This document shows positions 35,367 through 59,644 of a stretch of DNA of 64,000 nt, in pieces. A model generated the notes under the pieces. It did no database searches, was not told where the DNA came from, and saw only the letters and a program-made list of their open reading frames with translations. The first letter of the stretch is position 1. Each line of letters begins with the position of its first letter. Source of the stretch: Firmicutes bacterium ASF500 (GTDB lineage: Bacteria > Bacillota > Clostridia > Oscillospirales > Oscillospiraceae); assembly GCA_000492175.2 (NCBI GenBank), contig CP097573.1, positions 3,348,001 to 3,412,000 on the forward strand, given 5' to 3'. A program made the position numbers and the translations under genes.

Positions 35367-36308
35367 ATGCCGGATATGAAATTACCAAGCTATTTTTACG
35401 GCGATGAGGCGATGCAGTTTACCTATTTCCGTATCCCCTGCCAGCTTATCACCCACCCCCGGTTTAAGCACCTCTCCACAGACTCCAAGCTGCTCTATGG
35501 GATGCTGCTTGACCGCATGAGCCTGTCCATCAAAAACGAATGGTACGACGATACCGGGCGCGTCTACATTTACTACACTGTAGACGAGGTATGCAGCAAT
35601 CTGAACTGCGGGCGGGACAAGGCCATGAGGCTGCTGGCCGAGCTGGACACCGGCAAGGGCGTCGGTCTGATCGAGCGGAAGAAGCAGGGCCAGGGCAAGC
35701 CCACCCGGATATATGTCAAGCGTTTCACCACACAGGAGATACCTCCCCAGCCTGAGAAGAAGCCGGAGCCTCCCGCGCCACCTCCTGGCGTCGAGTTTGC
35801 CGACGTGCAGAAGTCGGATTTTCCGACCTCAAGACGCCGCAAAAATCCACCTCAAGAAGTCGAGGAAACCGACCCTAATCAAACTAAAAGAAATCAACTT
35901 GATTTTATCCAGCCTGATCCATCCATCTATCCCCCAGCCCCCAGCGGGTGGCAAATGGGGATTGATCGATGCGAGGTGAGAGAGGAAGTCAAAGAAAATA
36001 TCGAATATGAGCATTTACGGCAGGAGCTTCCCTACGACGATGTGGAGAGCCTTTTGGAGCTGATTGTGGACGTGTTGAGCAGCACGGCCTCCACCATACG
36101 GATTGGCGGTGAAGTCTTACCTGTGGATGCTGTCAGGCGGCGCTTTCGCCAGCTTGACAGCGAACATATCAAGTACATCATCGACTCCATGAGCCAGACA
36201 ACCACAAAAATCAATAACATCCGGGCCTATCTGCTGACGGCGCTTTACAACGCGCCTATCACGATAGGCCCTTACTATTCCGCCGCCGTCCGGCACGATT
36301 TTGGTTAA
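35367..36308 (+). CDS. repA: RepA-type replication initiator
   Basis: 313 residues. The N-terminal RepA_N domain (about 10-120: FYGDEAMQFTYFRIPCQLIT, then YYTVDEVCSNLNCGRDKAMR winged helix) is followed by a Pro/Glu-rich linker and a C-terminal helical domain (about 220-310), probably DUF6017, with QTTTKINNIRAYLLTALYNA. Such proteins start autonomous replication of the circular intermediate of Clostridia elements. ATG 35367 has an AAAGGAGG site. The stop codon lies in the first palindrome. Confidence 0.85.
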   Translation: MPDMKLPSYFYGDEAMQFTYFRIPCQLITHPRFKHLSTDSKLLYGMLLDRMSLSIKNEWYDDTGRVYIYYTVDEVCSNLNCGRDKAMRLLAELDTGKGVGLIERKKQGQGKPTRIYVKRFTTQEIPPQPEKKPEPPAPPPGVEFADVQKSDFPTSRRRKNPPQEVEETDPNQTKRNQLDFIQPDPSIYPPAPSGWQMGIDRCEVREEVKENIEYEHLRQELPYDDVESLLELIVDVLSSTASTIRIGGEVLPVDAVRRRFRQLDSEHIKYIIDSMSQTTTKINNIRAYLLTALYNAPITIGPYYSAAVRHDFG

Positions 36309-36331
36309 TGCGTCTCACCGTGAGACGCATT
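36307..36331 (+). repeat. 25-bp palindrome, copy 1
   Basis: Perfect arms AATGCGTCTCA and complement around CCG, followed by a T run and then the GGAGGG ribosome site of the next gene. Contains the last bases of the repA stop codon. Confidence 0.92.
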
Positions 36332-36348
36332 TTTTGGAGGGAAAGAAG

Positions 36349-36663
36349 ATGCCCGAACACACGATAACGACAGATTGCGTCTGGAGAAATTGGCTGGGCG
36401 GGACTGTGGACAGCCTGCCCTTTGCCGCGAAAATCTGCGACATCAATTCCCCGGACGGCATCGACAATGGGCGCGTCCTCAAATTGTTTCTGTACACGGA
36501 GGACGGCGAACAGGAACTCGCCGCCTATGAGCGCGGCTGGTCAATCTATCCGACTGGCAAACAAGAGGCCAGCATGGATGCCCTGATCGCCTACTGCGCC
36601 ACGCTCCCCCCTGCGGATAACTGGCATTTCCGGGCAGGCGGGGAAAACCCAACCTTGTGTTAA
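36349..36663 (+). CDS. Conserved hypothetical element protein
   Basis: 104 residues, start MPEHTITTDCVWRNWLGG, mixed alpha/beta with an Asp-Gly-Ile-Asp-Asn turn and a Cys-containing end. Small proteins of this type regularly sit between repA and parB-like genes of Tn1549-like elements; function unknown. GGAGGG site 8 bp before ATG, immediately after palindrome 1; palindrome 2 follows the stop. Confidence 0.7.
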   Translation: MPEHTITTDCVWRNWLGGTVDSLPFAAKICDINSPDGIDNGRVLKLFLYTEDGEQELAAYERGWSIYPTGKQEASMDALIAYCATLPPADNWHFRAGGENPTLC

Positions 36664-36665
36664 GA

Positions 36666-36690
36666 AATGCGTCTCACCATGAGACGTATT
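36666..36690 (+). repeat. 25-bp palindrome, copy 2 (variant)
   Basis: Right arm reads TGAGACGTATT, and the centre is CCA. As plus-strand RNA the changed outer position is a G-U pair, so the hairpin survives. A T run follows, then the parB-like ribosome site 24 bp on. Confidence 0.85.
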
Positions 36691-36724
36691 TTTTAGCAAA
36701 TATTTTTAATCAGGAGGACTATAA

Positions 36725-38857
36725 ATGGCAAATGAAAACAGCAAAACCCCGACCCAGGCGAAGCCCCAGGTGATCCCGCTGTCCAAAATCCATGACCTGC
36801 CCAACGTGTTCATCGCAAAGCCCCAGGACAAATCGCTGGGCAGTATGGTACTCAGCATTGAGAGCAGCGGCATCAAGGAGCCTGTCATTCTGCGCCAGCG
36901 GGACGACGGCGAGTATCAGCTCTTGTCCGGCTACCGCCGCCGCAGGGCCAGTGAGCTGGCGAAGAAGCCGGACATCCCCGCCCATGTCTATGAGATGACC
37001 ATGCAGGAGGCCATCGCCTACCGCAAGGCGGTGAAGAACAACCCCAACGCTCCCATCCCCGGCAAGCTCCTTGAGCCTGTCCCCGATAAGGATATGACCA
37101 AGAGTGCAGAGGCCCCCGCCGCCCCTGGCGATAAGACCAAGGAGGACAAAAGCCCTGCCGCCCCCGGTGAGAAGCCCAAGGAGGACAAGGCCCCTGCCGC
37201 TCCCGGCGATACGACCAAGGACGACAAGACCCCCGCCGTCCCTGGCGATAAGACCAAGAACGACAAGACCCCTGCCGCCCCCGGCGATACGCCCAAGGAG
37301 GACAAGGCCCCTGCCGCCCCCGGCGAGAAACCCAAGGAGGACAAGGCCCCCGCCGCTCCCGGCGAGAAGCCCAAGGAGGACAAGACCCCCGCCGCTCCCG
37401 GCGAGAAGCCCAAGGAGGACAAGACCCCTGCCGCCCCCGGTGAAAAGGATACACCTACCGTTGCCGAGCTGGAAGCCCAAGCGAAGTCCGGCCAACCCAT
37501 TTCCCTGACTGACCTCGCCAATGCTGACAAAGCGGAGCGAGAGGCCCAAAAAGGCGGTACGGTAGAGACAGACCCTCCCGGTCAGGATAAGGGCGAAGCC
37601 CTGACCGCCGCCAAGGAGGGACCTGCCGGGACTGCTATCACGCAGATTTTTGAGAAGCGCCTCACGGCCCCTGACGAGGCGGCGCGGAAAACTCTGCCCA
37701 CCCCGAAAGAGGGCGAGTCCTATTTCATCACCCTCCACCCGGCCTATCTGGAGAAATCCAGCTACAACAATTTTTCCGTGGATGTTGAAAGCGAGAACTT
37801 CAAGGAGCTTTTGAAATCCATTGAATTGGTGGGCATCAAAGACCCGGTGCTGGCCCGGTTCAACGAAAAGGGCGGGCTGGAAATCCTGTCCGGCCAGCGC
37901 CGCCATATTGCTGCCACCATGCTCAATCAGGCCGTTCCCACCATTATCCAGAAAATTGGCGACGCGGACGCCAAGATCATTGTGGCGGACGGCAACCTGC
38001 ACCGGGACAAAATTTCCAGCTATGACCTGTCCCGCGCCCTGCGGATGAAGATGGAGGGCATGAAGCAGAAGGCGGGCCGCAGAAAGAAAGGCTTTTCCGC
38101 AAATGAGCTGCAAAGCGACGCGAAGCTGGCGCAGGAAATGGGCATGACCGTCTCCAAGCTCAACCGCCTGATCCGTATGTCGGAGGCAATCAAGGGCGTG
38201 TGCGACCTGGTTGACGAGGGCAAGCTCTCCATTTCCACCGCAGCCGAAATGTCCGCGCTGAAGCCCAAGACGCAGGAATCCGTTCTGCACCTGCTTGACC
38301 TGGGCTATAAGACCACCACTGACCGCATTATCCGCATGAAAAAAGCCGAGGGCGAGGGCAAGAAGCTGGACGAAATGGAATTGCGGAAGATTTTGGACGA
38401 TAAGGACATCGCGCCCAAGCAGCCGGAGCCGGTACAGCAGCCGGAGGCCCCCACGACCGGCGCGGCCCCGGAACCCGCTGGCGAACCGGCTCCCCAGCCG
38501 CCTATCCCTGCCTCTCCCGATGTTCCCCAGACCCCGGACACGCCCCCCGCCGCAGACATTCCCCCGTGGGAGGAGCCGGAAAAAGCTCCCGCCCCGGAGC
38601 AGGGCGCTGAACCGCCCGCCCATGATGCTCCCACCCTGGAGAGGGATGACGACCCGTTCAAGGGGACGCAGGAGCGGCCCGAAGTGACCAAGGTGATTTT
38701 GACCGGGGACCGCCTCCGCAAGTATTTCCCCGATGTGTCCATGCCCCCCCGTGAGATTGAGGAAAGCGTGTACTCGGCGCTGGAGGAACGCCGCCAGCGG
38801 CAGATGAAAGAGCAGCAGAAAGCGGCGATTTTCAAGAAAAGCGGTCCGACCCGGTGA
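36725..38857 (+). CDS. Large ParB/KorB-like protein with two ParB boxes
   Basis: 710 residues, about twice a normal ParB. A first ParB-type domain (about 15-105) carries the LLSGYRRRRASEL box. Then come nine 13-residue Ala/Pro/Lys/Glu/Asp repeats (about 131-245), a second ParB-type domain (about 330-430) with the LSGQRRHIAAT box, a helix-turn-helix region (about 455-500: AKLAQEMGMTVSKLNRLIRM), a Pro-rich linker (about 560-630) and a basic C-terminus. ParB proteins bind palindromic centromere or operator sites. No ParA partner gene is visible. It may stabilise the circular form or act as a KorB-like regulator; the dispersed palindromes are possible targets (inference). Confidence 0.82.
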   Translation: MANENSKTPTQAKPQVIPLSKIHDLPNVFIAKPQDKSLGSMVLSIESSGIKEPVILRQRDDGEYQLLSGYRRRRASELAKKPDIPAHVYEMTMQEAIAYRKAVKNNPNAPIPGKLLEPVPDKDMTKSAEAPAAPGDKTKEDKSPAAPGEKPKEDKAPAAPGDTTKDDKTPAVPGDKTKNDKTPAAPGDTPKEDKAPAAPGEKPKEDKAPAAPGEKPKEDKTPAAPGEKPKEDKTPAAPGEKDTPTVAELEAQAKSGQPISLTDLANADKAEREAQKGGTVETDPPGQDKGEALTAAKEGPAGTAITQIFEKRLTAPDEAARKTLPTPKEGESYFITLHPAYLEKSSYNNFSVDVESENFKELLKSIELVGIKDPVLARFNEKGGLEILSGQRRHIAATMLNQAVPTIIQKIGDADAKIIVADGNLHRDKISSYDLSRALRMKMEGMKQKAGRRKKGFSANELQSDAKLAQEMGMTVSKLNRLIRMSEAIKGVCDLVDEGKLSISTAAEMSALKPKTQESVLHLLDLGYKTTTDRIIRMKKAEGEGKKLDEMELRKILDDKDIAPKQPEPVQQPEAPTTGAAPEPAGEPAPQPPIPASPDVPQTPDTPPAADIPPWEEPEKAPAPEQGAEPPAHDAPTLERDDDPFKGTQERPEVTKVILTGDRLRKYFPDVSMPPREIEESVYSALEERRQRQMKEQQKAAIFKKSGPTR
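37115..37455 (+). repeat. Nine tandem 39-bp repeats inside the ParB-like gene
   Basis: Units encode AAPGEKPKEDK plus AP or TP with small changes (D/E, T/P, N/E). The DNA copies are near-identical, so number may vary between strains by slippage or recombination. They make a charged, flexible linker between the two ParB domains. Confidence 0.9.
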
Positions 38858-38943
38858 TGATCAGCCCGGCCAGCAGCCGGATCGTCCCCGCAACGTGCGC
38901 CCAAAGGAGCGCTTTTTTTCTGCCCGAAAGCAGGTGACGGCCC

Positions 38944-39876
38944 GTAGCTGACAAATACTACCACGCCGTCTCCTGCTCAGGGGGCAAGGACTCGACGGCC
39001 ATGCTCCTGCTTATGCTGGAGGCCGGGATGCCCATTGACTGCGTTCTCACGGCGGACACAGGCATGGAATTTCCCGAAATGTACCGCCATTGGGATAAGA
39101 TCGACCAGGTATTGTATCAGGAACGGGGCATCCACCTGACGATCCTGCGCCACTCCAAGGGTTTTGAATGGCTTATGTTCGACCAGCCGAAAGAAAAACC
39201 GAAAACACTTGAAAACCGGGCGAAGCTGGGTGTACCGCCCTATGGGAACGGCTGGCCGGGTATTCGTGTGCGCTGGTGTACCGGCCAGCTCAAGACCCAT
39301 CTGATCGCCAAAGAGGTCAACCGGCTGAAAAAGGAAAAGAACGCCCTGCACTATGTTGGCATAGCGGCAGATGAACCGGCCCGCATAAAGGATGAGATTT
39401 ACCCCCTTGTTGAATGGGGCATCACCGAGGCCCAGGCATTGAAAATCTGCTATGACCGGGGCTTTGACTGGAACGGCCTCTATGAGATTTATCACCGCTG
39501 TTCCTGCTGGTGCTGTCCGTTTCAGCGAATAGGCGAACTAAAAAATCTGCGCTGTTATCACCCGGAGTTGTGGGCCAGACTGCGTGAACTGGACAAGCGG
39601 GCTTTAGACCAATTCGGACACAGCGCATTAGGCCGTTTCAAGGATAACTGGAATGTGGAGCAGTTGGAACATCGTTTTGCCGCTGAGGATGCTGCAAGAA
39701 AGGAGGCCGAGATGGAACAGGATAAGTCCAAGGAAATCCGCGATATGCTCAAGGACGTACCGCCCAAAAATGTGATTATCGCCGTTGACGATCTGCCGCC
39801 CAAAACGCTGGAGCAGCACTTGAAAGACCGTCAGAAAGGGCAGAAAAAGCCTCAAAAGCGGAAGAAAGGCCGCTGA
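38944..39876 (+). CDS. PAPS-reductase-family (PP-loop) protein without usual start codon
   Basis: About 310 residues. The ATP-binding PP-loop SCSGGKDSTAMLLLM is coded at 38968-39012, upstream of the first ATG (39001), so the gene must start earlier. The frame is closed by a TGA at 38935, and the only place for a start after an AGGTGA site is GTA 38944 (or another near-cognate codon). Later motifs: DTGMEFPEMYRH, IRVRWCTGQLK, and CSCWCCPFQR, a Cys cluster typical of the mobile-element branch. These enzymes belong with sulfotransferase/adenylation chemistry and in elements may modify DNA or nucleotides; role unproved. Confidence 0.78.
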   Translation, partial: VADKYYHAVSCSGGKDSTAMLLLMLEAGMPIDCVLTADTGMEFPEMYRHWDKIDQVLYQERGIHLTILRHSKGFEWLMFDQPKEKPKTLENRAKLGVPPYGNGWPGIRVRWCTGQLKTHLIAKEVNRLKKEKNALHYVGIAADEPARIKDEIYPLVEWGITEAQALKICYDRGFDWNGLYEIYHRCSCWCCPFQRIGELKNLRCYHPELWARLRELDKRALDQFGHSALGRFKDNWNVEQLEHRFAAEDAARKEAEMEQDKSKEIRDMLKDVPPKNVIIAVDDLPPKTLEQHLKDRQKGQKKPQKRKKGR

Positions 39877-39893
39877 TTATAAGACAGGGTGGA

Positions 39894-39918
39894 AATGCGT
39901 CTCACCGTGAGACGCATT
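39894..39918 (+). repeat. 25-bp palindrome, copy 3
   Basis: Perfect, centre CCG. It lies between the PAPS-reductase-like and DUF3560 genes; TTTCCATCTTT follows rather than a pure T run. Confidence 0.92.
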
Positions 39919-39956
39919 TCCATCTTTCATGCCGGACTATCAGAGAGGATGATTTT

Positions 39957-40781
39957 TTGAACGACTACGAGCAAAGAAAGCAAGATCGCATTGACCGCCT
40001 CCGCGAAAGGGCGGACAAGGCCCGCGCCCAAAGTGATGCGCTGTCCAGGCAATCCTGGGATATGATTAGCGCAATTCCATCAGGCCAGCCGGTTATGGGC
40101 GCGGCAGACGCACGCTACCGCGAAAGGGCAGGCAATAAAATGCGCCAGTCCGTCGCGGCATCCGATAAAGCCGACTATTATGAGCGCAGGGCGCAGGCGG
40201 CAGAGAATAACACCGCCATTTCCTCCGATGATCCGGAGGCCATCGCCAAGCTGACGGAAAAGCTGGAGGAACTGAAACAGACCCAGGAATTTATGAAAGC
40301 GGTCAATGCCTATTACAAGAAGAACGGCACCTGCCAGGGCTTTCCCGGCCTGTCCGATGAAGAAGCGGCCAAGCTGGAGGGCGGTATGGAGTACCACCCC
40401 TGGGATAAAAAGCCGTTCGCCTCTTTTGCGTTAAGCAACAATAATCAGAATATCCGCACCACGGAAAAGCGCATCCAGAAACTTACTCAGGCAAAGGAGC
40501 TGGGCTACACCGGCTGGACGTTTGAGGGCGGCAGAGTGGAGGCCAACCAAGACAAAAACCGGCTGCAAATCTTTTTCGATGAAATTCCCAGCGAGGATGT
40601 ACGGCAGGAACTGAAAAGCCGGGGCTTTCGCTGGGCGCGGAGCGAGGGCGCGTGGCAGCGGCAGTTGAGCGATAATGCCATTTACGCCGCCAGCCGGATC
40701 AAGGCCATCCAGCCCACAGACGGAACCAATCCTATAAAAATCCAGCCGAAGCGGAAGAACCAGTCCGGCCCGACACGATAG
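39957..40781 (+). CDS. DUF3560 protein
   Basis: 274 residues from TTG 39957 (GAGAGGA site). N-terminal coiled-coil (about 5-60, RLRERADKARAQSD) and the DUF3560 signature (ARYRERAGNKMRQSVAASDK), then a C-terminal segment with Phe-Asp-Glu-Ile and the Trp-rich RGFRWARSEGAWQRQLS, found in many phage and plasmid anti-host or maintenance proteins. Function not established. Constant neighbour of PAPS-like and DUF3846 genes in this element family. Confidence 0.82.
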   Translation: MNDYEQRKQDRIDRLRERADKARAQSDALSRQSWDMISAIPSGQPVMGAADARYRERAGNKMRQSVAASDKADYYERRAQAAENNTAISSDDPEAIAKLTEKLEELKQTQEFMKAVNAYYKKNGTCQGFPGLSDEEAAKLEGGMEYHPWDKKPFASFALSNNNQNIRTTEKRIQKLTQAKELGYTGWTFEGGRVEANQDKNRLQIFFDEIPSEDVRQELKSRGFRWARSEGAWQRQLSDNAIYAASRIKAIQPTDGTNPIKIQPKRKNQSGPTR

Positions 40782-40792
40782 GAGGCGCATCA

Positions 40793-41203
40793 ATGAATGT
40801 TTTAGTTGTGGAACCCGGCTTTCTTCCCTATGAGAAAGAAATCAATGGCCTTGCCGAAATGCAAAAAACTGTCGGTGGACTTATTCAGGCAATTTACCCA
40901 TTCCAGGAGGAAGTTGCCCTTGTATGTAATGAGAACGGCATATTTGAGGGCTTAGAGTTTAACCGCTCCATCCCGGAACGCAGTTACGGCGGCGTGTTTG
41001 GCACTTTTTTTGTGTGCGGCCTGGGCGAAGAAAATTTTATCTCCCTCACCCCGGAGCAGGTAAAGACCTATAAGGAGCGTTTCAAAAAAGCAGAGGTATT
41101 GATTGCTATGAACGGGGATAAGCCGTTCACGATCAAGGTGGACGCAGACCCCAAATATCCATCGGAACGACCGAGGCAGCCGCGCAAGCCTCCCATAAGG
41201 TAA
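40793..41203 (+). CDS. DUF3846 protein
   Basis: 136 residues opening MNVLVVEPGFLPYEKEINGL, then VGGLIQAIYPFQEEVALVCN, the DUF3846 hallmark, and a basic Pro/Arg tail. AGGAGG site before ATG 40793. Common accessory protein of Clostridia elements and phages, function unknown. Confidence 0.82.
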   Translation: MNVLVVEPGFLPYEKEINGLAEMQKTVGGLIQAIYPFQEEVALVCNENGIFEGLEFNRSIPERSYGGVFGTFFVCGLGEENFISLTPEQVKTYKERFKKAEVLIAMNGDKPFTIKVDADPKYPSERPRQPRKPPIR

Positions 41204-41209
41204 CGTGCC

Positions 41210-42163: not shown

Positions 42164-42174
42164 GAGTTGACCCT

Positions 42175-42507
42175 ATGGAAAAATTGACCGGGCAGACGCC
42201 CCTGCGGGAAATTGAGATTTTCGGTATTCCCGCCCTGTTCACGGATCAGGACATCCCACCCGACGAGCAAAGCCCTGATATGTTCTACTATGAGCTGGTG
42301 AGCGCCGATGGCAGCGCGGCCCTTTTGGGGACGGTACTGACCTTGATCCCTGTGGAAATCCCGGAGAGCGGCGAACGGGATGTTTACGACAGCGACCTTA
42401 TGCTGGACACGGCGGGGGAGCTGCTGACCCCGGAGGAATTTGGGGAGAAGTACCTCTCCCCGGTGAATGGCCCTAATCTGGACGAACGCTATGGAAAAGA
42501 TGATTGA
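42175..42507 (+). CDS. LPD28-like element protein
   Basis: 110 residues, acidic: GIPALFTDQDIPPDEQSPDM and YYELVSADGSAALLG resemble the LPD28 domain of large polyvalent proteins; ends near FGEKYLSPVNG. Unknown function. AGGAG site; overlaps the next gene by 17 bp. Confidence 0.7.
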   Translation: MEKLTGQTPLREIEIFGIPALFTDQDIPPDEQSPDMFYYELVSADGSAALLGTVLTLIPVEIPESGERDVYDSDLMLDTAGELLTPEEFGEKYLSPVNGPNLDERYGKDD

Positions 42508-43084
42508 TATTATCCCGTTTTTGCAGGGAATCGTGGAGGAAAACACCCAGCACTATCAATCGGACTTTGCCCACGATGAAGCGCGGCTGACCGCCGCCAT
42601 GCTGGAAATCAGCCGGGAAAAGCGTACATTTCTGTGGTTGAGCCGTCCCTGCGGGACACTATGCGTCCCAGAACGGGAGGCGTTTATCAAGGAAAGCACA
42701 GCACACATCACCTGGACGCATTACGACTATGACGCGGAGCATATCAAGGCGTACCGCGTCATCGTTGAACCTGGACGGGAGGGCGCTTTTGTGCTGGGCC
42801 AAGTTAAGCCCCTGCGCTATGGGGAGCAGGTAGAGCGTGTGAAGCAGAACGCTATTCACGCTGAAATGGTAGAACTGACCTTTGCGGACGGCACAGAGCT
42901 TGAACTGCCCTATGCAGCATATTCTGGGCACTTTCACAGTCTGATTAACGACCACGGGCGTATTGAACGCATCCACTATAAACCCGGAAATGAGCTGGAG
43001 CTGGACTGTGTTCTCCAGAAAGAGCGCATCGCCTCTGCCGTCAGAAAGAGGACGCCCCGTAAGAAGAAACCGGCTGTAAGGTAG
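42491..43084 (+). CDS. Hypothetical element protein
   Basis: 197 residues from ATG 42491 (42500 is possible). No family recognised. Contains a central beta-rich part (TWTHYDYDAEHIKAYRVIVE) and a basic tail (KRTPRKKKPAVR) suggesting nucleic-acid contact. Last gene before the IS4-family insertion; hairpins follow the stop. Confidence 0.6.
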   Translation: MEKMIDIIPFLQGIVEENTQHYQSDFAHDEARLTAAMLEISREKRTFLWLSRPCGTLCVPEREAFIKESTAHITWTHYDYDAEHIKAYRVIVEPGREGAFVLGQVKPLRYGEQVERVKQNAIHAEMVELTFADGTELELPYAAYSGHFHSLINDHGRIERIHYKPGNELELDCVLQKERIASAVRKRTPRKKKPAVR

Positions 43085-43090
43085 CACCCA

Positions 43091-43192: not shown

Positions 43193-43202
43193 GCCTACGG
43201 AA

Positions 43203-43220
43203 AATACGTCTCACCGTGAG
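43203..43220 (+). repeat. Palindrome copy 4, left part (split by IS)
   Basis: AATACGTCTCACCGTGAG. With ACGTATT from 44717-44723 it rebuilds a 25-bp palindrome in which both arms carry a matching G-to-A/C-to-T change (ATAC/GTAT), i.e. a compensated variant. Confidence 0.9.
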
Positions 43221-44705
43221 CAATGCCATTAAGTTAACCAGATATTCCCAAGTAAAGCGCAAAAAAGCACTTGACAAAAATGAAAAAATGTGCGGCAAGG
43301 CCCTGAAAACGAGATTGATTTTCAGGGGGGCGCACAAATGAAGAACACGGGCGGAGCGTTGAAGGAAAGACTGTTATCCATAATCGGAGCAATGGGGGAG
43401 CACCCGGAGCGGTATGCAAAGAACCCGGGCAAGGACTTTACCCGGCGGCGGTCGCTGACGTTGCCCACGCTGATCAGCCTCATCCTGACCATGGACGAAA
43501 AAAGTATGTGGAAGGGGCTGCTGGGATATTTTCAGAACGGGATCGGCACTCCATCGGCGTCCGCATTTGTTCAGCAGCGGAAAAAGCTGCTGCCTCAGGC
43601 GTTTGAGGACTTGTTCCACCGTTTTACCGACTCCCTGACCGCCGGGAAAAAGTTCCAGGGCTACCGCTTGCTGGCCGTTGACGGCACCTCCCTAAAGTCC
43701 ATGTCGTATCCCGAAGATTCAGATGCCTACCGGCCCGGCACACAGCGGCAGCATGGCTGGAATCTGTATCATCTCAACGCGCTGTTCGACCTGGAAAACG
43801 GGATTTATACCGATGTACTGGTGCAGAAGGAGCACACCAAAAGCGAGGACGCGGCTTTGTGTGAAATGGCGGAGCGTTCTGCGGGATCGGAGCCTGTGAT
43901 CCTGCTGGCTGACCGGGGTTATGAGGCGTACAACAATTTCGCCCATTTGGAGCAAGCCGGCTGGAAGTACCTGATCCGCCTCAAGGATCGGAACCGGACA
44001 TACGCTTACGGGGTCACGCTGCCCGACCAGCCCGAATTCGACCTGCCGGTGCATATCACCTTGGGACGGCTGACCCGGCGGCAGTTGGAGCAGCGGGGCA
44101 TCCCCATACCGGAAGCGTACTGCCGTCTCCCCAACAATGTGCCCTTTGATTATTTGGAACCTGGCAGTGCCGGTTTCTATCTGTTTTCTGCCAGAATTGT
44201 GCGTTTGAGGCTGAAAGACGGAAGTATGGAGACATTCATCACTAATTTGAACCAGACCCAATTCTCTCTGGCGACGCTTCGGCGTCTTTATGCCAGGCGC
44301 TGGGGAATTGAAACATCTTTCCGGCAGTTAAAGTATACTGTGGGCATGGTTCACCTCCATTCCAAGCGGCCCGAACTGATCCTTCAAGAGATATTTTCCG
44401 CCTTTATCATCTTCAACTTTACAAAGGCCGCTGCCTGGGAAGTGGATACCGCATGGGGCAGCTCCAAATATAAACGCTGCGTCAATTTTTCTGATGCGGT
44501 TTATCTCTGTTGCCAAACTTTGCGGGGCTGGTTCCTTGACATGCTGCCTCTCTTGGAACGAAAACTCCTGCCCTGCCGACCAGACCGCAACTTCCCACGT
44601 CCCATCATTGCCGATAACCGCATTTCCCCCATGTATGTCCCCTCTCGATAACCTTCCTCCCATATCGCTGCTATTTGGTTATTTCTGGTTAACTTAATGG
44701 CATTG
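43221..44705 (+). mobile_element. IS4-family insertion sequence in a palindrome
   Basis: 1485 bp with perfect 22-bp terminal inverted repeats starting CAATGCCATTAAGTTAACC at both ends, holding one transposase gene. Flanked by 11-bp near-duplications CTCACCGTGAG (43210-43220) and CTCACGGTGAG (44706-44716). They differ only in the central base and are reverse complements of each other. 11 bp is in the IS4-family range. Confidence 0.92.
43338..44651 (+). CDS. IS4-family DDE transposase
   Basis: 437 residues from ATG 43338. Catalytic motifs: first Asp in LLAVDGTSLKS, second in ILLADRGYEAYN, and the IS4 signature YARRWGIETSFRQLKY holding the Glu (Y-R-E-K block). Fits the length and order of family transposases, apparently intact. 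A TTGACA box lies about 65 bp upstream within the element. Confidence 0.9.
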   Translation: MKNTGGALKERLLSIIGAMGEHPERYAKNPGKDFTRRRSLTLPTLISLILTMDEKSMWKGLLGYFQNGIGTPSASAFVQQRKKLLPQAFEDLFHRFTDSLTAGKKFQGYRLLAVDGTSLKSMSYPEDSDAYRPGTQRQHGWNLYHLNALFDLENGIYTDVLVQKEHTKSEDAALCEMAERSAGSEPVILLADRGYEAYNNFAHLEQAGWKYLIRLKDRNRTYAYGVTLPDQPEFDLPVHITLGRLTRRQLEQRGIPIPEAYCRLPNNVPFDYLEPGSAGFYLFSARIVRLRLKDGSMETFITNLNQTQFSLATLRRLYARRWGIETSFRQLKYTVGMVHLHSKRPELILQEIFSAFIIFNFTKAAAWEVDTAWGSSKYKRCVNFSDAVYLCCQTLRGWFLDMLPLLERKLLPCRPDRNFPRPIIADNRISPMYVPSR

Positions 44706-44723
44706 CTCACGGTGAGACGTATT
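44706..44723 (+). repeat. Palindrome copy 4, right part
   Basis: CTCACGGTGAGACGTATT, directly abutting the right inverted repeat of the insertion sequence. A T/C stretch follows. Confidence 0.9.
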
Positions 44724-48205: not shown

Positions 48206-48230
48206 AATGCGTCTCACGGTGAGACGCATT
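48206..48230 (+). repeat. 25-bp palindrome, copy 5
   Basis: Perfect arms, centre CGG, preceded by AAA and followed by a T run; the mobC ribosome site begins 19 bp on. Confidence 0.92.
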
Positions 48231-51606: not shown

Positions 51607-51699
51607 TGCTACTATGGGGAGACGGGCGCGTTTCCCGGAAAGTCCGGCGGTTATCGCTGGCGGGGGCGGCGGGCGCGTCCGCGCCCCGGAACCGGCAAA

Positions 51700-51724
51700 A
51701 ATGCGTTTCACGGTGAGACGCATT
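51700..51724 (+). repeat. 25-bp palindrome, copy 6 (variant)
   Basis: Left arm AATGCGTTTCA (one T for C), right arm consensus, centre CGG. In plus-strand RNA the change gives a U-G pair. A-run before, T-run after, then the AAGGAGGGG site of the methyltransferase gene. Confidence 0.88.
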
Positions 51725-51758
51725 TTTTATTTCACCGAGAAAGGAGGGGACCAGCCGC

Positions 51759-52373: not shown

Positions 52374-52391
52374 GAAACAGGAGGTTTTTCC

Positions 52392-53369
52392 ATGAAGAAA
52401 CACCACAGGCTGGTTTCTCTGGCCTCTGCGCTCCTGCTGGCCCTGGCCGCTTTGCCCTGCACGGCGCTGGCGGCGGAGACAGAGGGAACGGAACCGGCCC
52501 AGGGAGCGCCGCCCCCTGCGGTCCTTTACCCCGCAGAGGTACGGACGAGCGAGGAAAACGGCATGATCCGGCTGGAAAAGGTTTATTACCTCTCCACCCG
52601 TGACGATCCCGCCGCCATCCCCACCGGGGACTTTGACCGGGAGGGCCGTCACTACACGTTGCTGGACGTGCTGAAGAACGATCTGAGCGAGACGGACGCC
52701 AGGGACTACATCGAGGTTGTCACGATGGACAGCGGCACCAAGGATATGGCCGAGATTATCAAGATGCTGGAGCCGGAGCGTGAGATCGCCACCGAGGACG
52801 GCTACACCGGCATTTTGAAGCCCGACTATACCAAAATTACCGTGGAGGCCGCTGGCTATAAGAACAACAGCTGGACAGTATCGGCATCCCGCACTTACCC
52901 CAACCTGTCCGACGCCGACGCCTCCCTCATCCCCAAGACCATCACAGACAGCGGACGGACACTGACGCTGGCGGGCGTGGACTGGCAGGAGGCGGGGGAG
53001 TTTTACAACGCCATCGCCAGCTACACCGGCACCGCCAGCGGGCGAAGCGTCACCGGGTACACCGTCACTGTGGAATACAGCGGCGAAGTCACCAAGACCA
53101 GCCGGGACACGGTGATTTATACCGCTGTGTTTTCCGCTGAAAATGCGTCTCACGGTGAGACGCATTTAGACCTGGACCCCACCGCCACCCCGGAGGGCGG
53201 CGAATCCCAGCAGACCCAGCCCCCGGAACCGGCCCAGGAGGGCGGCGGGAGCGTCGCCGGGAAAATCGTAGTCACAGCCCTGGCCGGGATCGCCGCCCTC
53301 GCCATCATCGGCTACGGCGGCTGGCGGGGCTACAAATTTATCCGAGATAAGAAACGGGGGTATGTCTGA
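52392..53369 (+). CDS. Secreted, membrane-anchored protein containing a palindrome in frame
   Basis: 325 residues: signal peptide (1-29, ending TALAA), an extracellular beta-rich region (about 40-250), a linker, and a C-terminal TM helix (about 297-317, VVTALAGIAALAIIGYGGW) with a basic tail. This is the layout of accessory surface proteins encoded beside sortases in Clostridia conjugative elements; role unknown. Palindrome copy 7 is read in frame at 53142-53166, adding NASHGETHL between the domain and the Pro/Glu-rich linker. The stop directly abuts the sortase ATG. Confidence 0.75.
   Translation: MKKHHRLVSLASALLLALAALPCTALAAETEGTEPAQGAPPPAVLYPAEVRTSEENGMIRLEKVYYLSTRDDPAAIPTGDFDREGRHYTLLDVLKNDLSETDARDYIEVVTMDSGTKDMAEIIKMLEPEREIATEDGYTGILKPDYTKITVEAAGYKNNSWTVSASRTYPNLSDADASLIPKTITDSGRTLTLAGVDWQEAGEFYNAIASYTGTASGRSVTGYTVTVEYSGEVTKTSRDTVIYTAVFSAENASHGETHLDLDPTATPEGGESQQTQPPEPAQEGGGSVAGKIVVTALAGIAALAIIGYGGWRGYKFIRDKKRGYV
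53142..53166 (+). repeat. 25-bp palindrome, copy 7, inside a coding region
   Basis: Perfect arms, centre CGG. Read in frame as ENASHGETHL within the surface-protein gene. No stop codon or shift results. Confidence 0.93.
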
Positions 53370-54185
53370 ATGAAAAAGTATCTTTCCACCCTGCTGGCCG
53401 TCTGCCTTGTGCTGACGGCGCTTTCCATGCCCGCCTCCGCGTTGGAATACACCTTTGACAACCCGCCCACCGGGGATTTTGGTACGCCTACCAGCACGGA
53501 GGACATCATCCAGACCGGGGCCGAACCCGCCAACAAGGACAGGAGCAAGAGCAGCGCCCTCATTCCTCCCGGTTTTGGGACACCCACCAGCTACTTGCCC
53601 AACTCCGGGGAGTACCTGACCCCGAACCTTGCGGCGGACGGCCCCCTGAGCGGGAAGTACACCCTCACCGTGACTGGCGGCACAGGCGGCGGCGCACCGG
53701 CCCTCCCCGGCGCGGTTGACAGCTCCGCGCCCACCAACCCGGCCTATCCCACCACCAGCGGCCCCGTCACCGCCTTTACCGATGTAACCTCCGACCTCTA
53801 TTACAGCAACGGCAGTTTGGGCACACTGGAAATCCCGTCCATCGGCCTGAGTGTCAATATCTATCAGGGGACGGACAGCGCCGCTCTGAAAAAGGGGGCG
53901 GGCCACTTCACCAACACCAGCATCTGGAATGGAAATGTTGCGTTGGCTGGGCACAACCGGGGGGTAAATAATCATTTTGGCAAAATCCATACACTTGACA
54001 CGGGCAATACCATCACCCTTACCACCGCCCTGGGGACCCGCACCTATACCGTTACCAGTGTGGCAAAGGTTGACGTGATGGACAACACCATGCTGGAGGC
54101 CACCAGCGACAACTGCATCACGCTTTTTACCTGCGTGATGAACCAGCCCAGCTACCGCTGGTGTGTCCGGGCAGTCGAGGCTTGA
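53370..54185 (+). CDS. Sortase, class D-like
   Basis: 271 residues: signal peptide/anchor (1-24), a long Pro/Gly/Thr-rich spacer (about 30-140), then the sortase beta-barrel (about 150-270). Catalytic residues are visible: His in ALAGHNRGVN, Cys in ITLFTCVMN, Arg in YRWCVRAVE. Strands LGTLEIPSIGLSVNIYQGTD and KIHTLDTGNTITLTT are typical. Sortases join surface proteins to the cell wall, but the adjacent adhesin ends in SLH repeats, not an LPxTG signal, so its substrate is elsewhere or unusual. Confidence 0.88.
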   Translation: MKKYLSTLLAVCLVLTALSMPASALEYTFDNPPTGDFGTPTSTEDIIQTGAEPANKDRSKSSALIPPGFGTPTSYLPNSGEYLTPNLAADGPLSGKYTLTVTGGTGGGAPALPGAVDSSAPTNPAYPTTSGPVTAFTDVTSDLYYSNGSLGTLEIPSIGLSVNIYQGTDSAALKKGAGHFTNTSIWNGNVALAGHNRGVNNHFGKIHTLDTGNTITLTTALGTRTYTVTSVAKVDVMDNTMLEATSDNCITLFTCVMNQPSYRWCVRAVEA

Positions 54186-54195
54186 CACGCCATTT

Positions 54196-54225
54196 TTGGA
54201 CAATTTCCCCCAAATGTAGTATAAT
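54196..54225 (+). promoter_or_regulatory. Promoter of the SLH adhesin gene
   Basis: TTGGAC (54196-54201), 18 bp, TATAAT (54220-54225), about 49 bp before the start codon. Confidence 0.65.
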
Positions 54226-54273
54226 AATGATAGAGAAACCCAACTAAAACTACATTACAGGAGGAAAACGACC

Positions 54274-57200
54274 ATGAAAAAAGCAAAATTGACTACCCGG
54301 CTCACCGCCGCCATTCTGGCCCTCTCCCTGCTCACCGTTCCGGCCATAGCCGCAGATCCCCCGGCAAGTGCTGTCCGGGTAAACAGCTACAAGGGCAATA
54401 CCCTGGCAGTCGGAGAACGGAGCGGCCTCATGATCGGCCCCAGCGGGACGGAGTACACCGTTACCTCCAGCGACCCGGACACAGTAGCGGTGGAGCAGAT
54501 CACAGGCTTTTGGGTAGCTGTCGCCAAATCGGAGGGAACCGCAAACATCACCGCTGCCAACCGTGCCGGAGAGCGCGGAACCCTGACGCTCACCGTTGGC
54601 TCCGGCGCTCCAGCGGCCCCCGCCGTCGTGGACGGCCCCAGCCCCACGGAGGAACCGGATGTACGGCAGGAATTGGTACGGCTTATCAATCAGACCCGCA
54701 AGGCCAACGGCGTGGCGGAGCTTCCGGTCAGCGAGGCCCTGATGACCGCCGCCCAAACCCTCTCGGATCAGCGGTACACCTGGCATCACACAAAAGAGGA
54801 ATGTGAGGCCGTGATCGCCAGCGGCTACCCCTACGGTTTCGGCATAAACCTTACGGTATTCACCGGCGTCGCCACGGAGGACGCCGCCCAGCACGCCCAC
54901 GACAACTGGCTTAATTCTCCCGGACACTTTGAAACGATGATTAACCGTATCACGTTGGATACCATCGAAAACGCGGAGTACAAGAGGGACGAAGGCGAAT
55001 GGCAGACCAGTCCCGTATTTACCGGCCTTGATCCAAACCATGAATACACCTTCTATGTCCGGCTGAAGGAGGATAAAAACCACAACGCCTCCCCCAGCAG
55101 CGCGGGAGCGGCCATCACCACAAAGAAAACCATGCTGGACGGCGCAACTGTGACCGTCAGCGGCAGCTATACCTATACCGGGGCGGCGGTTGTCCCGGCA
55201 GCGGGAAATGTGACGGTAGAACTGAACGGAGTGACGATTGACGCCAGCCAGTACACCATCAGCGCCACGAACAACGTCAACGTAGGTACGTCCACGCTGA
55301 CCGTCACCGCCACAGCGGATGGGAATTATTCCGGCTCCGCCAGTACGACCTTTACCATCAGTCCGGCCACGCTGACCATCAAGGCCAGCGACCAGACCAT
55401 CACCTACGGCCAGAGCATCACAGAGGGAACAGGGCAGGTAACTGCCACCGGGCTTTGCGCTGGTGATAGTTTAAGCGGCATTACCCTCGCCGCCAGCACC
55501 AGGAATGTACCCGGCGGCACCATCGAACTCTCCGCCGCTCAAATCAAGAACAGCAGCGGCGGGGATGTAACAGCGAATTACAATATCACCTATGAAGCGG
55601 GAACGCTGACCATTAACAAGGCGCAAGCCACCGTCACCGGCGATCCTACGGCCAATACGCTGACCTACACAGGAGCGGCCCAGGCCCTTGTCACGGCGGG
55701 AACCGCCAGTATTGGCGAAGTGGTGTATTCCCTGACAGAAATGGGAACCTATTCCACAACCATCCCCACCGGCACCAACGCGGGCACCTATAAAGTTTGG
55801 TACAAGGTAGAGGGCACCACCAATTATGAGGGGACCGCCCCTGTGAAAGTGGATGTGACCATCGGCAAGGCAAATTACACCGGCCTAATGACCGCCAGCA
55901 CCTCCTGCAAATACGGTAGAGACAAGACCTATGATATGAGCGACCTGCTCCCGGAGGGCTATGTGCTGGGGACAATTACCATTACGGATACCAACAGCAT
56001 CTTTGAGGGCACTCCCACGGTGAGCGGAGCCATGCTGACCTACAAACTGGTGAATGACAGCCAGAAGGTGAACAGCACCGGTACGATCACCATTCCCGTG
56101 ACGGAATCCACCAATTACAACCCGTTTGACCTGACGATCACCGTCACCGTGACAAACGTGCGAATCCCCAATCTGAACGTCAATCCCATTTCCGTAATCT
56201 ACACCGGCAATCCGGTGAACAGCAACCAGATCACCGGCACTGCCACGGTGGACGGGATTGCAATCGATGGAACATGGAGTTTTGTCAGCGGTCAGGCTAT
56301 TACCAATGTAGCGGACAGCGGCGTGAAGCGAGTTACGTTCACTCCGAATAATACCGACCTTTATGGTGCCAGCACCGGCACCGTGGTCGTGACCATCCGC
56401 AAGGCCACCCCCGGCCTGACCCTCACCCCGTCCCCGGCCACCCTGCCCAACGGCGGCATGGTGACACTGACCCTCTCCGGTCTGCCCGACCGCAGTTCGG
56501 CCACCGTAACCTGTTCGGATGAAAACATCACCGTGACAAAGGGGAGCGGCAACACCTGGACGGCGGAGCTGCCTGCTGGCGGCGCGTCCTACACCTTCGC
56601 CGCCTCCTACGCCGGGGACGGCAACCACAACGGCGCGACAGCAAATTGCACCGTCAGGGTGGAGAAGATTACGCCGGTGCTGTCCCTGACAGCCTCCCCC
56701 GCGTCCCCGCTAATCGGCGGCGGCACGGTAACGCTGACCCTCTCCGGCCTGCCTGCTGGCGGAACGGCTTCCGTGACCTGCTCTGGCGGCATCACCGTGA
56801 CGGCGGGAGCGGGCAATACTTGGACGGCGAAACTGCCCAACAGCACCGCAGACTATATCTTCACGGCCTCCTACGCAGGAAACGATAGCTACCACGGTGC
56901 AAATACAACCTGCACCGTGGAGACAAAGGAAGTGGTGATCCTGCCGAATCCGCCCGCTGATGATGGCAGCACAAAATTCCAGTTGGTCATGAAGGACGGC
57001 ATTTCCAAGGTCCCTGCCGGATTGCAGAACATTGAGGCGCTGAACACTCCCGAAAAGCTGGAAACCGCCATGAAAACCGCTATTACACAGGCCAATTCCG
57101 GCGTTCCCCAGGCCAACACCGCCGTCTATGATGTGGAGCTGCAAATCAGCACCAACGGCGGCGCAACCTGGACCCCGGCCACGAAAGACAACTTCCCCGC

Positions 57201-58287
57201 AAACGGCCTGGCCGTCACCCTGCCCTATCCGGCGGGAACAAACAGCAGCTATACCTTCACTGTGGTGCATATGTTCACCACCAGCGATTTTGGCAAAACG
57301 CCCGGAGATATTGAAACGCCCCGCGTCACCAACACGGCCAGCGGCCTCCAGTTTACTGTTACCGGCCTGTCCCCGGTCTCCGTGGGATGGACGGCTCCCG
57401 CAACCATGCCGGATACTCCCTCCGGCGGCAATCATGGCGGCGGAGGAGGCGGGAGCGTCAGCACCTACGCCATTACTGTGGAGAAGTCGGAGCATGGCAA
57501 AGTGACCTCCAACCGCACCAATGCCAGCAATGGCAGCACTGTCACCCTGACTGTCACCCCGGACAGCGGCTATGTGCTGGATGTCCTGACCGTCACCGAC
57601 AGCCGGGGGAACGAGATCAAGCTGACCGCCCAGAGTGGCGGGAAGTACACCTTCACCATGCCAAGCAGGGCCGTAACGGTAAAAGCGTCCTTTGTTCCTC
57701 TGCCGGACGATACGCAAAAGCCCTGCGACGGCGGCGCGGACTGCCCCTCCCGCAGCTTCACTGACCTGGGGAGCGTGGGGACGTGGTATCACGAGGCCGT
57801 GGACTATGTTCTGCGGAATGGTCTGATGGGCGGCTATGGAAACGGAACATTCGGCCCCAACAACAACCTGACCCGCGCCCAATTTGCCCAAATCCTCTTT
57901 AACAAGGAGGGCAGGCCGGCGGTCAATTACCTGCTGCAATACGGCGATGTGGCGGAGGGCGCATGGTACACCGAGGCCATCCGCTGGGCCACCAGCCAGG
58001 GCATTGTGGGCGGTTATGGCAACGGGATGTTCGGCCCCAACGACAACATCACCCGTGAGCAGTTGGCGGTCATGCTCTGGCGGTACGCCGGAAGCCCCGC
58101 CGCTACGGATAAGGAGCTGCATTTCACCGATGCGGATCAGGCCAGCGGCTACGCGTTGGAGGCCCTGCGCTGGGCGGTAGAGAACGGCATCATCAGCGGC
58201 TACGGCAACGGACAGTTGGCACCCCAAGGCTTGGCAACTCGCGGACAGGTGGCGCAGATGCTTATGAATTTCTTGAAAAACAGATAA
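54274..58287 (+). CDS. Large CAP/Ig-like/SLH surface adhesin-like protein
   Basis: 1337 residues. Signal peptide (1-26), a Big-like region (about 30-115), a CAP (SCP/PR-1) domain (about 130-228) ending at NWLNSPGHFETMIN and lacking its last strands, several MBG/YDG-type repeats (about 270-700), two Ig-like repeats with PGLTLTPSPATLPNGG-type starts (about 710-885), a further domain, a bacterial repeat (about 1070-1145) and three SLH repeats (about 1165-1337). It should be exported and bound to cell-wall polymer. The abrupt CAP-to-MBG joint suggests recombination of modules. AGGAGG site before ATG. Confidence 0.85.
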   Translation: MKKAKLTTRLTAAILALSLLTVPAIAADPPASAVRVNSYKGNTLAVGERSGLMIGPSGTEYTVTSSDPDTVAVEQITGFWVAVAKSEGTANITAANRAGERGTLTLTVGSGAPAAPAVVDGPSPTEEPDVRQELVRLINQTRKANGVAELPVSEALMTAAQTLSDQRYTWHHTKEECEAVIASGYPYGFGINLTVFTGVATEDAAQHAHDNWLNSPGHFETMINRITLDTIENAEYKRDEGEWQTSPVFTGLDPNHEYTFYVRLKEDKNHNASPSSAGAAITTKKTMLDGATVTVSGSYTYTGAAVVPAAGNVTVELNGVTIDASQYTISATNNVNVGTSTLTVTATADGNYSGSASTTFTISPATLTIKASDQTITYGQSITEGTGQVTATGLCAGDSLSGITLAASTRNVPGGTIELSAAQIKNSSGGDVTANYNITYEAGTLTINKAQATVTGDPTANTLTYTGAAQALVTAGTASIGEVVYSLTEMGTYSTTIPTGTNAGTYKVWYKVEGTTNYEGTAPVKVDVTIGKANYTGLMTASTSCKYGRDKTYDMSDLLPEGYVLGTITITDTNSIFEGTPTVSGAMLTYKLVNDSQKVNSTGTITIPVTESTNYNPFDLTITVTVTNVRIPNLNVNPISVIYTGNPVNSNQITGTATVDGIAIDGTWSFVSGQAITNVADSGVKRVTFTPNNTDLYGASTGTVVVTIRKATPGLTLTPSPATLPNGGMVTLTLSGLPDRSSATVTCSDENITVTKGSGNTWTAELPAGGASYTFAASYAGDGNHNGATANCTVRVEKITPVLSLTASPASPLIGGGTVTLTLSGLPAGGTASVTCSGGITVTAGAGNTWTAKLPNSTADYIFTASYAGNDSYHGANTTCTVETKEVVILPNPPADDGSTKFQLVMKDGISKVPAGLQNIEALNTPEKLETAMKTAITQANSGVPQANTAVYDVELQISTNGGATWTPATKDNFPANGLAVTLPYPAGTNSSYTFTVVHMFTTSDFGKTPGDIETPRVTNTASGLQFTVTGLSPVSVGWTAPATMPDTPSGGNHGGGGGGSVSTYAITVEKSEHGKVTSNRTNASNGSTVTLTVTPDSGYVLDVLTVTDSRGNEIKLTAQSGGKYTFTMPSRAVTVKASFVPLPDDTQKPCDGGADCPSRSFTDLGSVGTWYHEAVDYVLRNGLMGGYGNGTFGPNNNLTRAQFAQILFNKEGRPAVNYLLQYGDVAEGAWYTEAIRWATSQGIVGGYGNGMFGPNDNITREQLAVMLWRYAGSPAATDKELHFTDADQASGYALEALRWAVENGIISGYGNGQLAPQGLATRGQVAQMLMNFLKNR

Positions 58288-58296
58288 AACCTTATA

Positions 58297-58329
58297 AGAG
58301 CGGGACGGTTCTTGCCGTCCCGCTCTTTG
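58297..58329 (+). terminator. Intrinsic terminator of the adhesin gene
   Basis: Perfect 12-bp stem AGAGCGGGACGG (58297-58308) with 58315-58326, 6-nt loop, then TTTG. Ten bases after the stop codon. Confidence 0.88.
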
Positions 58330-58359
58330 TATAACAGATTGTGCGGAATTTGTCGATAA

Positions 58360-58384
58360 AATGCGTCTCACCGTGAGACGCATT
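58360..58384 (+). repeat. 25-bp palindrome, copy 8
   Basis: Perfect arms, centre CCG, preceded by AAA. It lies about 30 bp after the adhesin terminator and 120 bp before the sigma-factor gene. Confidence 0.92.
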
Positions 58385-58504
58385 TAACAAAAGCTGTCGT
58401 TTTTTATAACCTTTTAGGAAGTTTTGGGTGTTCCTGCGGATAATGAGCAAAAAGCAATTTCCAGGGATATTAAGGAGTAGAGGGACAAATTAGGAGTTTT
58501 GCTT

Positions 58505-58930
58505 ATGAAAAGATTTGAACGATTTAACGAGATAATATTTGAATCCTACTGTATGAAATCTGTCCTCAACGCCATCAAAAAGGAACGAAATCGGAAAGAC
58601 GCGCGGGGAGAAGTGGAGCAGTCCCTGTCCACACTGACAGATGCGATATTGTACGCCTTGTCAACAGAGGATGATGAGATGATTCAGGCAGAGAAGCCGC
58701 ATCAAATTTTTTGCGTTCATGGAGGAAACATCCCTATTTATGATCCAAAGCTGTCCTGTGCTTTGTCCCACCTGATGCCCGCAGACCGGGAGATCGTATT
58801 GCTTTACTTTTTTAGAGAGCTGACAGACGAAAAAATTGCGCCGCTGGTACATATGAGCCGCCCAACCGTCTCCCGCCGGCGAAAAGCCGCTACACGGCGG
58901 CTGCGTGAATTGATGGAGGACACATCATGA
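58505..58930 (+). CDS. Element-encoded sigma-70-like factor
   Basis: 141 residues from ATG 58505. The C-terminal part (about 85-138) is a sigma region-4-like helix-turn-helix (MPADREIVLLYFFRELTDEK, IAPLVHMSRPTVSRRRKAA). The N-terminal part is helical and less clear. Such small factors sit next to recombination genes in Tn916- and Tn1549-like elements, and probably control excision. Overlaps the next gene by 4 bp (ATGA). Confidence 0.8.
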   Translation: MKRFERFNEIIFESYCMKSVLNAIKKERNRKDARGEVEQSLSTLTDAILYALSTEDDEMIQAEKPHQIFCVHGGNIPIYDPKLSCALSHLMPADREIVLLYFFRELTDEKIAPLVHMSRPTVSRRRKAATRRLRELMEDTS

Positions 58931-59169
58931 AATTAGTCCCTTTTGCCGTTATCCAAGAAGCCAAAAAATTTGACACCGAGGCTGTCGAATTTGTGTTCCG
59001 GCATTTTGCGGGCTTTATTGCCAGCAAATGCCAGAGGCACTACACGGACGAATACGGAAAAGAACGCTCTTATGTGGATGATGACCTCCGCTATCAGGCA
59101 GAAATCGCACTGTTCAGAGCTATCGCCGGTTTCCAATTCAGAGAACCGCCCGATGATTTTATGCCATAA
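58927..59169 (+). CDS. Conjugative-transposon helix-turn-helix protein
   Basis: 80 residues with the HTH_16-like pattern VIQEAKKFDTEAVEFVFRHF and DLRYQAEIALFRAIAGFQF, as in the small partner of the element sigma factor in many Clostridia elements. Both are probably made together as one split regulator of the recombinase region. Confidence 0.78.
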   Translation: MKLVPFAVIQEAKKFDTEAVEFVFRHFAGFIASKCQRHYTDEYGKERSYVDDDLRYQAEIALFRAIAGFQFREPPDDFMP

Positions 59170-59584
59170 CATTTCCGTTTGGCAGGAGTGCGCCGTGCGC
59201 GGCAGGACGCATCCCTGCGGGCCGGAAATGGCCTGTACCACTACAACTGAATAGGGCAATCAGATACATTCTGTATGCGCGGAGCCGGGCGGCGGGTACG
59301 CAGGGAGACTCCCCCGTGAAAGGAGGCAGGACATCGGGAGGACGGAGCGAACAAGGCCAGCGCCGCAAAGCAGCTATGGCACAGCAGCGGGCCACGAACC
59401 GCATACAGGCATGATGATACTTGCGTCGGCTATGCGTCACAGCGTAGGACGCCCCGCCACGGGAATGGGGGGAGGCACGAAAATTCCTATGGAGCGGCTT
59501 TGCCAGCCGCCGTCTGAACCTGCCTTTGCTTTATATCGTGAACAACTGAATACAGCACCGCCCGACGGTGCGAAATTTGTCGAT
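59170..59584. other. Long noncoding region between regulators and tnpW
   Basis: About 415 bp with no supported gene although GC-rich. It shows short local dyads (e.g. GCGGCTTTGCCAGCCGC near 59501) and purine-rich AGGAGGCAGGAC-type stretches. It could hold promoters for excision, recombinase accessory sites or an RNA. I could not assign it. Confidence 0.45.
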
Positions 59585-59609
59585 AATGCGTCTCACCGTG
59601 AGACGCATT
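59585..59609 (+). repeat. 25-bp palindrome, copy 9
   Basis: Perfect arms, centre CCG, T run after it; only 10 bp from copy 10. Confidence 0.92.
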
Positions 59610-59619
59610 TTTCATTGGA

Positions 59620-59644
59620 AATACGTCTCACGGTGGGACACATT
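59620..59644 (+). repeat. 25-bp palindrome, copy 10 (degenerate)
   Basis: AATACGTCTCA, centre CGG, right arm TGGGACACATT: two outer mismatches and one U-G-type pair. It lies 8 bp before the AGGAG site of tnpW. Confidence 0.8.

Follow-up and report, generated by a model that had tools for sequence, protein, structure and literature searches.

Among ParB-family systems, KorB acts at some dozen palindromic operators scattered over its plasmid, Noc has dispersed chromosomal sites, and Bacillus subtilis carries a parS site inside spo0J. KorB of plasmid RK2 is described, in excerpts of its published account, as a CTP (cytidine triphosphate) clamp able to slide as far as 1.5 kb and to silence genes; its 16-bp operators (OB) may be as near as 45 bp to the promoter or over 1,000 bp away (PMC11790492). 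Noc is counted as an orphan ParB in part of another paper, which reports that ParB-like proteins encoded apart from parAB operons are widespread and often found on mobile elements (PMC12704722). Here we analyse a stretch of 64,000 nucleotides (the window) from Firmicutes bacterium ASF500 (contig CP097573.1, positions 3,348,001 to 3,412,000), in which a mobile element carries a ParB-like gene and a family of 25-bp palindromes. We put at roughly 0.9 the probability that these palindromes are parS- or operator-like binding sites of the element's own ParB-family protein, because the motif type tracks the ParB clade, sites lie within parB genes themselves, and residues of the protein covary with bases of the site.

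The palindromes have an odd centre and follow the pattern AATGCGTCTCA-SSS-TGAGACGCATT, which with up to 3 mismatches occurs at nine places in the window and nowhere in 100 shuffles. An earlier note on this DNA had placed ten copies here, and all are present: nine were recovered by the scan, and the tenth, both parts of which could be located, is split by an insertion sequence (IS). The note had also held that there are no others in the window, and this is correct, as a looser scan allowing up to 6 substitutions adds a single weak look-alike at 42660. The features are as follows, the palindromes being given without a strand.

36307 to 36331: palindrome copy 1, with a CCG centre, overlapping the last 2 bases of the RepA_N open reading frame (ORF); the next ATG is 17 bp on
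36666 to 36690: palindrome copy 2, 34 bp upstream of the parB-like gene
36725 to 38857, plus strand: ParB-like gene, the proposed palindrome binder, 710 amino acids (aa), with ParB_N in two stretches and no parA found adjoining
39894 to 39918: palindrome copy 3, from the pattern scan
43203 to 43219: left part of palindrome copy 4, cut by the IS; TCACCGTGA abuts the IS end
43220 to 44706, plus strand: IS in palindrome copy 4, with a DDE_Tnp_1 transposase and inverted ends GCAATGCCATTAAGTTAACCAGA
44707 to 44723: right part of palindrome copy 4, TCACGGTGAGACGTATT
48206 to 48230: palindrome copy 5, upstream of mobC-like and relaxase genes
51700 to 51724: palindrome copy 6, with a one-sided change
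53142 to 53166: palindrome copy 7, in frame within the ORF at 52392 to 53369 and kept in relatives, one of which (L066) is altered in both arms (AATTCG..CGAATT)
58360 to 58384: palindrome copy 8, from the pattern scan
59585 to 59609: palindrome copy 9, from the pattern scan
59620 to 59644: palindrome copy 10, degenerate, with 3 mismatches

The ParB_N match of the window protein (PF02195, E 3.7e-19) is the only one that Pfam gave at E ≤ 0.001, with no KorB-specific domain and no match to the HTH_ParB profile, which was matched in a short relative. The protein carries GQRR and NLHR signatures, with a helix-turn-helix (HTH) region of EMGMTVSKLNRLIRM, and its best sequence match in the PDB is a Noc (7ol9, E 1e-8). 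The nucleotide-binding signatures GxRR and NxxR are thus present, residues G66, R68, R69, N100 and R103 are invariant in 10 sequences, and by analogy with its family the protein probably binds CTP. A repeated PAAPGEKPKEDK-like stretch is also found in it. The genome encodes a second ParB of this type (G000:C1, near 1278468); the pair share an identical DNA-binding half of 233 aa, but their open frames are 710 and 788 aa long.

DNA around ParB homologues was fetched from genomes with a match, 91 of 295 in the order and 57 of 245 in the class. CAC-centred loci holding a ParB have relatives of the window protein (57–100% identical), with the exception of L132 (33%), and four CAA-centred loci have another ParB, 29–34% identical to that of the window. 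More broadly, motif type is nearly block-diagonal with the clade of the ParB HTH, and the clades own distinct 25-bp odd-centred palindromes. Long ParBs (434–788 aa) have their own dispersed palindromes in each clade: GCGTCCCAASTTGGGACGC at L181/L247, GTGGCTCAAWTTGAGACAC at L182, TTTGGGACAANTTGTCCCAAA at seven loci (one to five copies each), CTTCGGGCCAASTTGGCCCGAAG at L237 (ten copies) and at L234, L243, L245 and L241 (three to five), and CTCTGGACACCGTGTCCAGAG at L232 (three copies). Motif-type counts allow 3 substitutions and types A and E are two letters apart, so the counts of these two overlap; a few strays were also found, with type A copies at L132 and one type C copy each at L240 and L245.

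Where parB is short, the palindrome forms part of the coding sequence, in the linker just before the recognition helix. It was present in 20 of 21 short ORFs of a first set, the miss being a CAA-type ORF cut at the locus end (L057), and in 52 of 56 of a second, overlapping set. The full set comprises 157 distinct ParB ORFs, of which 132 are full short ones; at least 10 of 12 pairs form in the linker of 122 of these, compared with 9 of 511 random windows from the same ORFs. Four more reach 9 pairs, and L161, which was missed by the anchor rule, had scored 12 in the second set. Under a stricter automatic rule, the linker palindrome is the best of the whole ORF in 115 of the 132. The arms differ strongly between genes yet still pair: pairing at offsets 4, 5, 7 and 8 is seen in all 20 genes compared, against a mean of 7–10 and a maximum of 14–17 when arms are shuffled, the 20 having been chosen for their palindrome from the 21 short ORFs then known. 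With 200 synonymous-codon shuffles per gene, the real score was never reached in 18 of the 20. The two arrangements are linked by the long ParBs of the GGGCC clade, where L237 holds the same palindrome once in parB and nine times outside it, and where the parB genes of L234, L243 and L245 each contain a copy as well.

For 73 non-redundant short ParBs, protein columns were scored against half-site bases by mutual information. With the palindrome codons set aside, this gave two coupling peaks with z of 21 and 20, the next being 11. The first couples the residue before PAVE to half-site position 2, where R goes with C (19 of 19), N, T, S, V and L go with A, and N goes with G twice. The second couples residue 2 of the recognition helix to half-site position 4, with N to C in 17 of 17, D to G in 18 of 18, T to C in 6 of 6, A to T in 4 of 4, and R mixed. 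According to excerpts of Jalal et al. (PMC7383237), the Noc residue R201 prefers C at position 6, and ParB has G201; the pairing of R with C before PAVE agrees with this preference, column and position being equated by our own motif alignment. Applied to the 25 long ParBs, the position-2 rule was right for all 20 whose residue is in the table (the other 5 have a residue outside it), which lends weak support since all long-ParB sites carry the common letter A, and the helix-residue rule was right in 7 of 7 where the residue had at least 4 training examples. From these lines of evidence we strongly infer that the 25-bp sites are bound by ParB.

Several observations weigh against this assignment. 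Over all 25 long ParBs the helix-residue rule was right 14 times and wrong 11 times, and the window protein is one that it missed: its helix residue is S (one training example, with C) and its site has T. The couplings were computed ignoring phylogeny, and many weaker ones (z 6–9) lie outside the HTH. Five full short ORFs have no site (L280, L292, L311, L305 and L314), and some motif-bearing stretches (L001, L006 and L007) have no ParB homologue. The family search found no family of at least three at L230, L233, L236, L238–L241, L244, L248 and L249; by a looser count, L230, L236, L239, L240, L241 and L244 have one to three type B or C copies, and L233 and L238 have none. Elsewhere, L235 has repeats of another kind, the family at L246 is no larger than in its own shuffles, and the repeat at L242 is a different one, with an even centre. 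Two ParB types that are only about 30% identical go with sites whose arms are the same. Finally, there is no clear link to promoters, with promoter-like sites (at least 9 of 12) numbering 19 against 13 in shuffles, among 127, and those at 10 of 12 or better numbering 3 against 0; a promoter-operator reading was rejected for want of a clear promoter excess near the sites.

The palindromes are not confined to one mobile element, as had been claimed: the chromosome holds 50 copies (up to 3 mismatches, including the nine of the window) in about seven clusters, near 1.01, 1.28–1.32, 2.05, 2.40–2.42, 3.38–3.41, 3.51 and 3.52–3.53 Mb. A motif match was found in 12 of 99 relative genomes searched, our own genome counted and all of one genus, and a genome collection gave at least 119 stretches with the motif, most titled Oscillospiraceae, Clostridia or a genus therein; the viral contigs searched held none. 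The window, own-genome stretches and named genome contigs were pooled into 129 loci (18 overlapping loci, L010–L027, being excluded), with 321 copies at up to 5 substitutions. For the flank comparison, 312 copies with up to 4 substitutions and enough flank were taken, of which 182 remained as unique sites once copies with similar flanks had been dropped. With genes called by a simple caller of our own (78% coding), 180 of these sites are intergenic and 2 lie within genes; the former comprise 64 and 42 between same-direction pairs, 24 between convergent and 21 between divergent genes, and 29 flanked by a called gene on just one side.

A close relative of the window element lies at 1.277–1.3215 Mb in the same genome and has 21 sites, spaced 35 to 6,965 bp apart, with 78% of the stretch no more than 1.5 kb from one. 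It encodes T4SS-DNA-transfer and TraG-like genes and is thus the more complete conjugative element of the two; in the window element, genes of this kind were not identified among the part of the ORFs that was scanned. When these two elements, which are not independent, are pooled, a palindrome is present in 24 of the 31 gene gaps that reach 48 bp and in none of the 22 shorter ones. Following what is known of the family, a ParB dimer would bind each 25-bp site through its HTH, bind CTP, close as a clamp and slide out from the site, and with sites in 24 of the 31 longer gaps such clamps could reach most of the element.

Since the gene has no ParA beside it and the many sites extend over the element, as with KorB and Noc, we lean towards element-wide control of gene expression through clamp loading, by KorB-like silencing or coordination, as the output, rather than segregation or marking. 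A different output of the same binder, in which ParB and its sites form a centromere array that segregates an excised or plasmid-like form, is unlikely. The element does have a RepA_N gene, and its short-ParB relatives often have both a site in parB and an adjacent parA (50 of 75 rows, duplicate loci included). However, ParA was found adjoining none of the 25 long-ParB rows, that of the window included (duplicates counted, and 6 too near the locus end to judge), and the sites are dispersed across the element, not clustered. The own genome has six ParA-type matches, none near either window-type parB gene, and one of them adjoins the genome's own short parB. The ParA-binding motif LG[RK]GL is absent from the window protein and all 157 relatives, short ones included, and so does not separate the short and long classes.

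For clostridial mobile elements in general, we find it slightly more probable than otherwise that there is a large family of orthogonal ParB–site pairs, in which parB encodes its own site of about 25 bp before the recognition helix, so that protein and target would be inherited together. The long-ParB branch, which lacks ParA, would have placed copies of its site in the majority of intergenic gaps, and what had been a centromere would thereby have become a coat of clamps over the whole element, controlling or marking it.

The palindromes might be bound by some element protein other than ParB, and RepA_N, HTH_16, sigma-like and methylase genes are all present to supply one; the occurrence of same-arm sites with ParBs only about 30% alike would fit. 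We consider such a binder very improbable, as the palindrome of short ParBs lies inside parB and covaries with ParB residues, and the long-ParB clades each have their own motif.

The earlier note had preferred a transcribed hairpin (an attenuator, processing site or translation switch), with pairing kept in plus-strand RNA, and had named a DNA-bound KorB- or ParB-like regulator as the alternative. The alternative is now strongly supported by the three lines of evidence above, and the hairpin, whether in one of these roles or as a terminator, has become scarcely credible. Many copies do lie 14–40 bp upstream of a start codon, and the flanks are paired over 7 bp at five sites and 10 bp at one. 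The position just before a ribosome site, also claimed, holds for most window copies, but 45 of the 182 unique sites lie between convergent or divergent genes; a T run after and an A run before are features of a minority, TTTT following directly at 17 of 106 same-direction sites and AAAA preceding directly at 4. A selected RNA hairpin should favour G-U over A-C among one-sided arm changes in the transcribed strand. The 106 same-direction unique sites showed 17 G-U, 17 A-C and 10 other mismatches, with 12 two-sided changes that keep pairing, and all 187 same-direction copies gave 29 G-U against 35 A-C. Pairing of the flanks outside the core was not significant against shuffles (all z < 2), an Rfam search gave no matches, and the palindromes hold matching positions while their flanks diverge to roughly 75–85% identity. 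The even split, the unpaired flanks and the retention of palindromes amid diverged flanks fit recognition of double-stranded DNA, and the RNA hairpin was rejected on the strand test, the mixed gene orientations and the lack of significantly paired flanks. Least probable of all is a small mobile palindrome (a miniature inverted-repeat transposable element or one like repetitive extragenic palindromes) spreading through the elements, which would account for the many dispersed, nearly all intergenic copies and the adjacent doublets but not for copies fixed at matching positions across diverged flanks or for a motif type that tracks ParB type, and for which the joined-flank search gave no clean 25-bp empty site among the matches listed (flanks being rearranged or diverged), and neighbouring bases being missing too where a copy is most clearly absent (L105, L146 and L060 compared with L072, at about 86–90% identity).

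Doublets 47 bp apart, with one ATACG-armed and one ATGCG-armed palindrome, occur at L002 (13959/14006), L079 (3521/3568 and 4131/4178), L088 (6655/6702) and L108 (5741/5788). At L074 (3126/3173) and L114 (4933/4980) an ordinary copy has a related palindrome, AATGTGTYGCACSGTGCRACACATT, 47 bp away, possibly a site of another ParB.

The bases that border the IS in copy 4, TCACCGTGA to its left and TCACGGTGA to its right, form a 9-base repeat in which the centre base alone differs. The DNA to the right of the IS is unlike that of the relative L002, and together these points suggest that the two flanks may derive from different insertions. Targeting of palindromes by the IS was considered and rejected: the own genome holds this one IS alone (both ends) and 1 of 59 other genomes has one end of it, at a contig edge, so there is no pattern of targeting. 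Immediately to the left of the element, at 32184 to 35129 on the minus strand, is a run of three tyrosine recombinases that overlap one another, each with Phage_integrase, an arrangement that we take to resemble a recombinase-in-trio (RIT) unit. At 54274 to 58287 the element carries, as cargo, a large S-layer-homology surface protein with a CAP domain and an adjoining sortase gene.

Most short parB genes of the class thus carry their own candidate target, and over a hundred protein–site pairs are readable from sequence alone. If the orthogonal pairs are real, they are a natural data set for the ParB–DNA recognition code, part of which can be read by matching protein–site pairs on related elements across Clostridia. 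At one position the code that emerges (N to C, D to G and A to T; R to C) accords with the published biochemistry of Noc, and it opens the evolution of DNA-binding specificity to direct test.

In openly licensed papers in PMC, searched by title and abstract start (a scope that excludes subscription papers and preprints), none concerned dispersed ParB sites of clostridial elements or a clade-varying palindrome inside parB. The account of orphan ParB-CTPase-fold proteins (PMC12704722) differs from ours in that the excerpts consulted mention no binding sites for them, and its main text has 'palindrom' 0 times. ParABS is alike in that the half-site end TCAC matches parS, TGTTTCAC, as given in excerpts of PMC7383237, and in that the short relatives include parA–parB pairs with an in-gene site; it is unlike in the 25-bp odd-centred site, the clade-specific arms, and the dispersed copies without an adjacent parA in long-ParB elements. 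Noc, with its Noc-binding sites (NBS) in Bacillus, shares with the window protein the character of an orphan ParB-family protein and is its best PDB match; in the window protein the column equated by our own alignment with 201 is occupied by S instead of R, its site has A there, as does parS, and that site is odd-centred, not even, and element-borne. KorB–OB of RK2 (IncP) resembles the present system as a ParB-family protein of a mobile element with multiple operators (10 in the window element and 21 in its relative), and differs from it in that here the site has 25 bp and other letters, Pfam gives ParB_N alone, no ParA lies beside the gene, and the elements are integrated and clostridial. The comparison suggests that mobile elements of gut Clostridia may use a KorB-like clamp system for whole-element control, as described for plasmid RK2.

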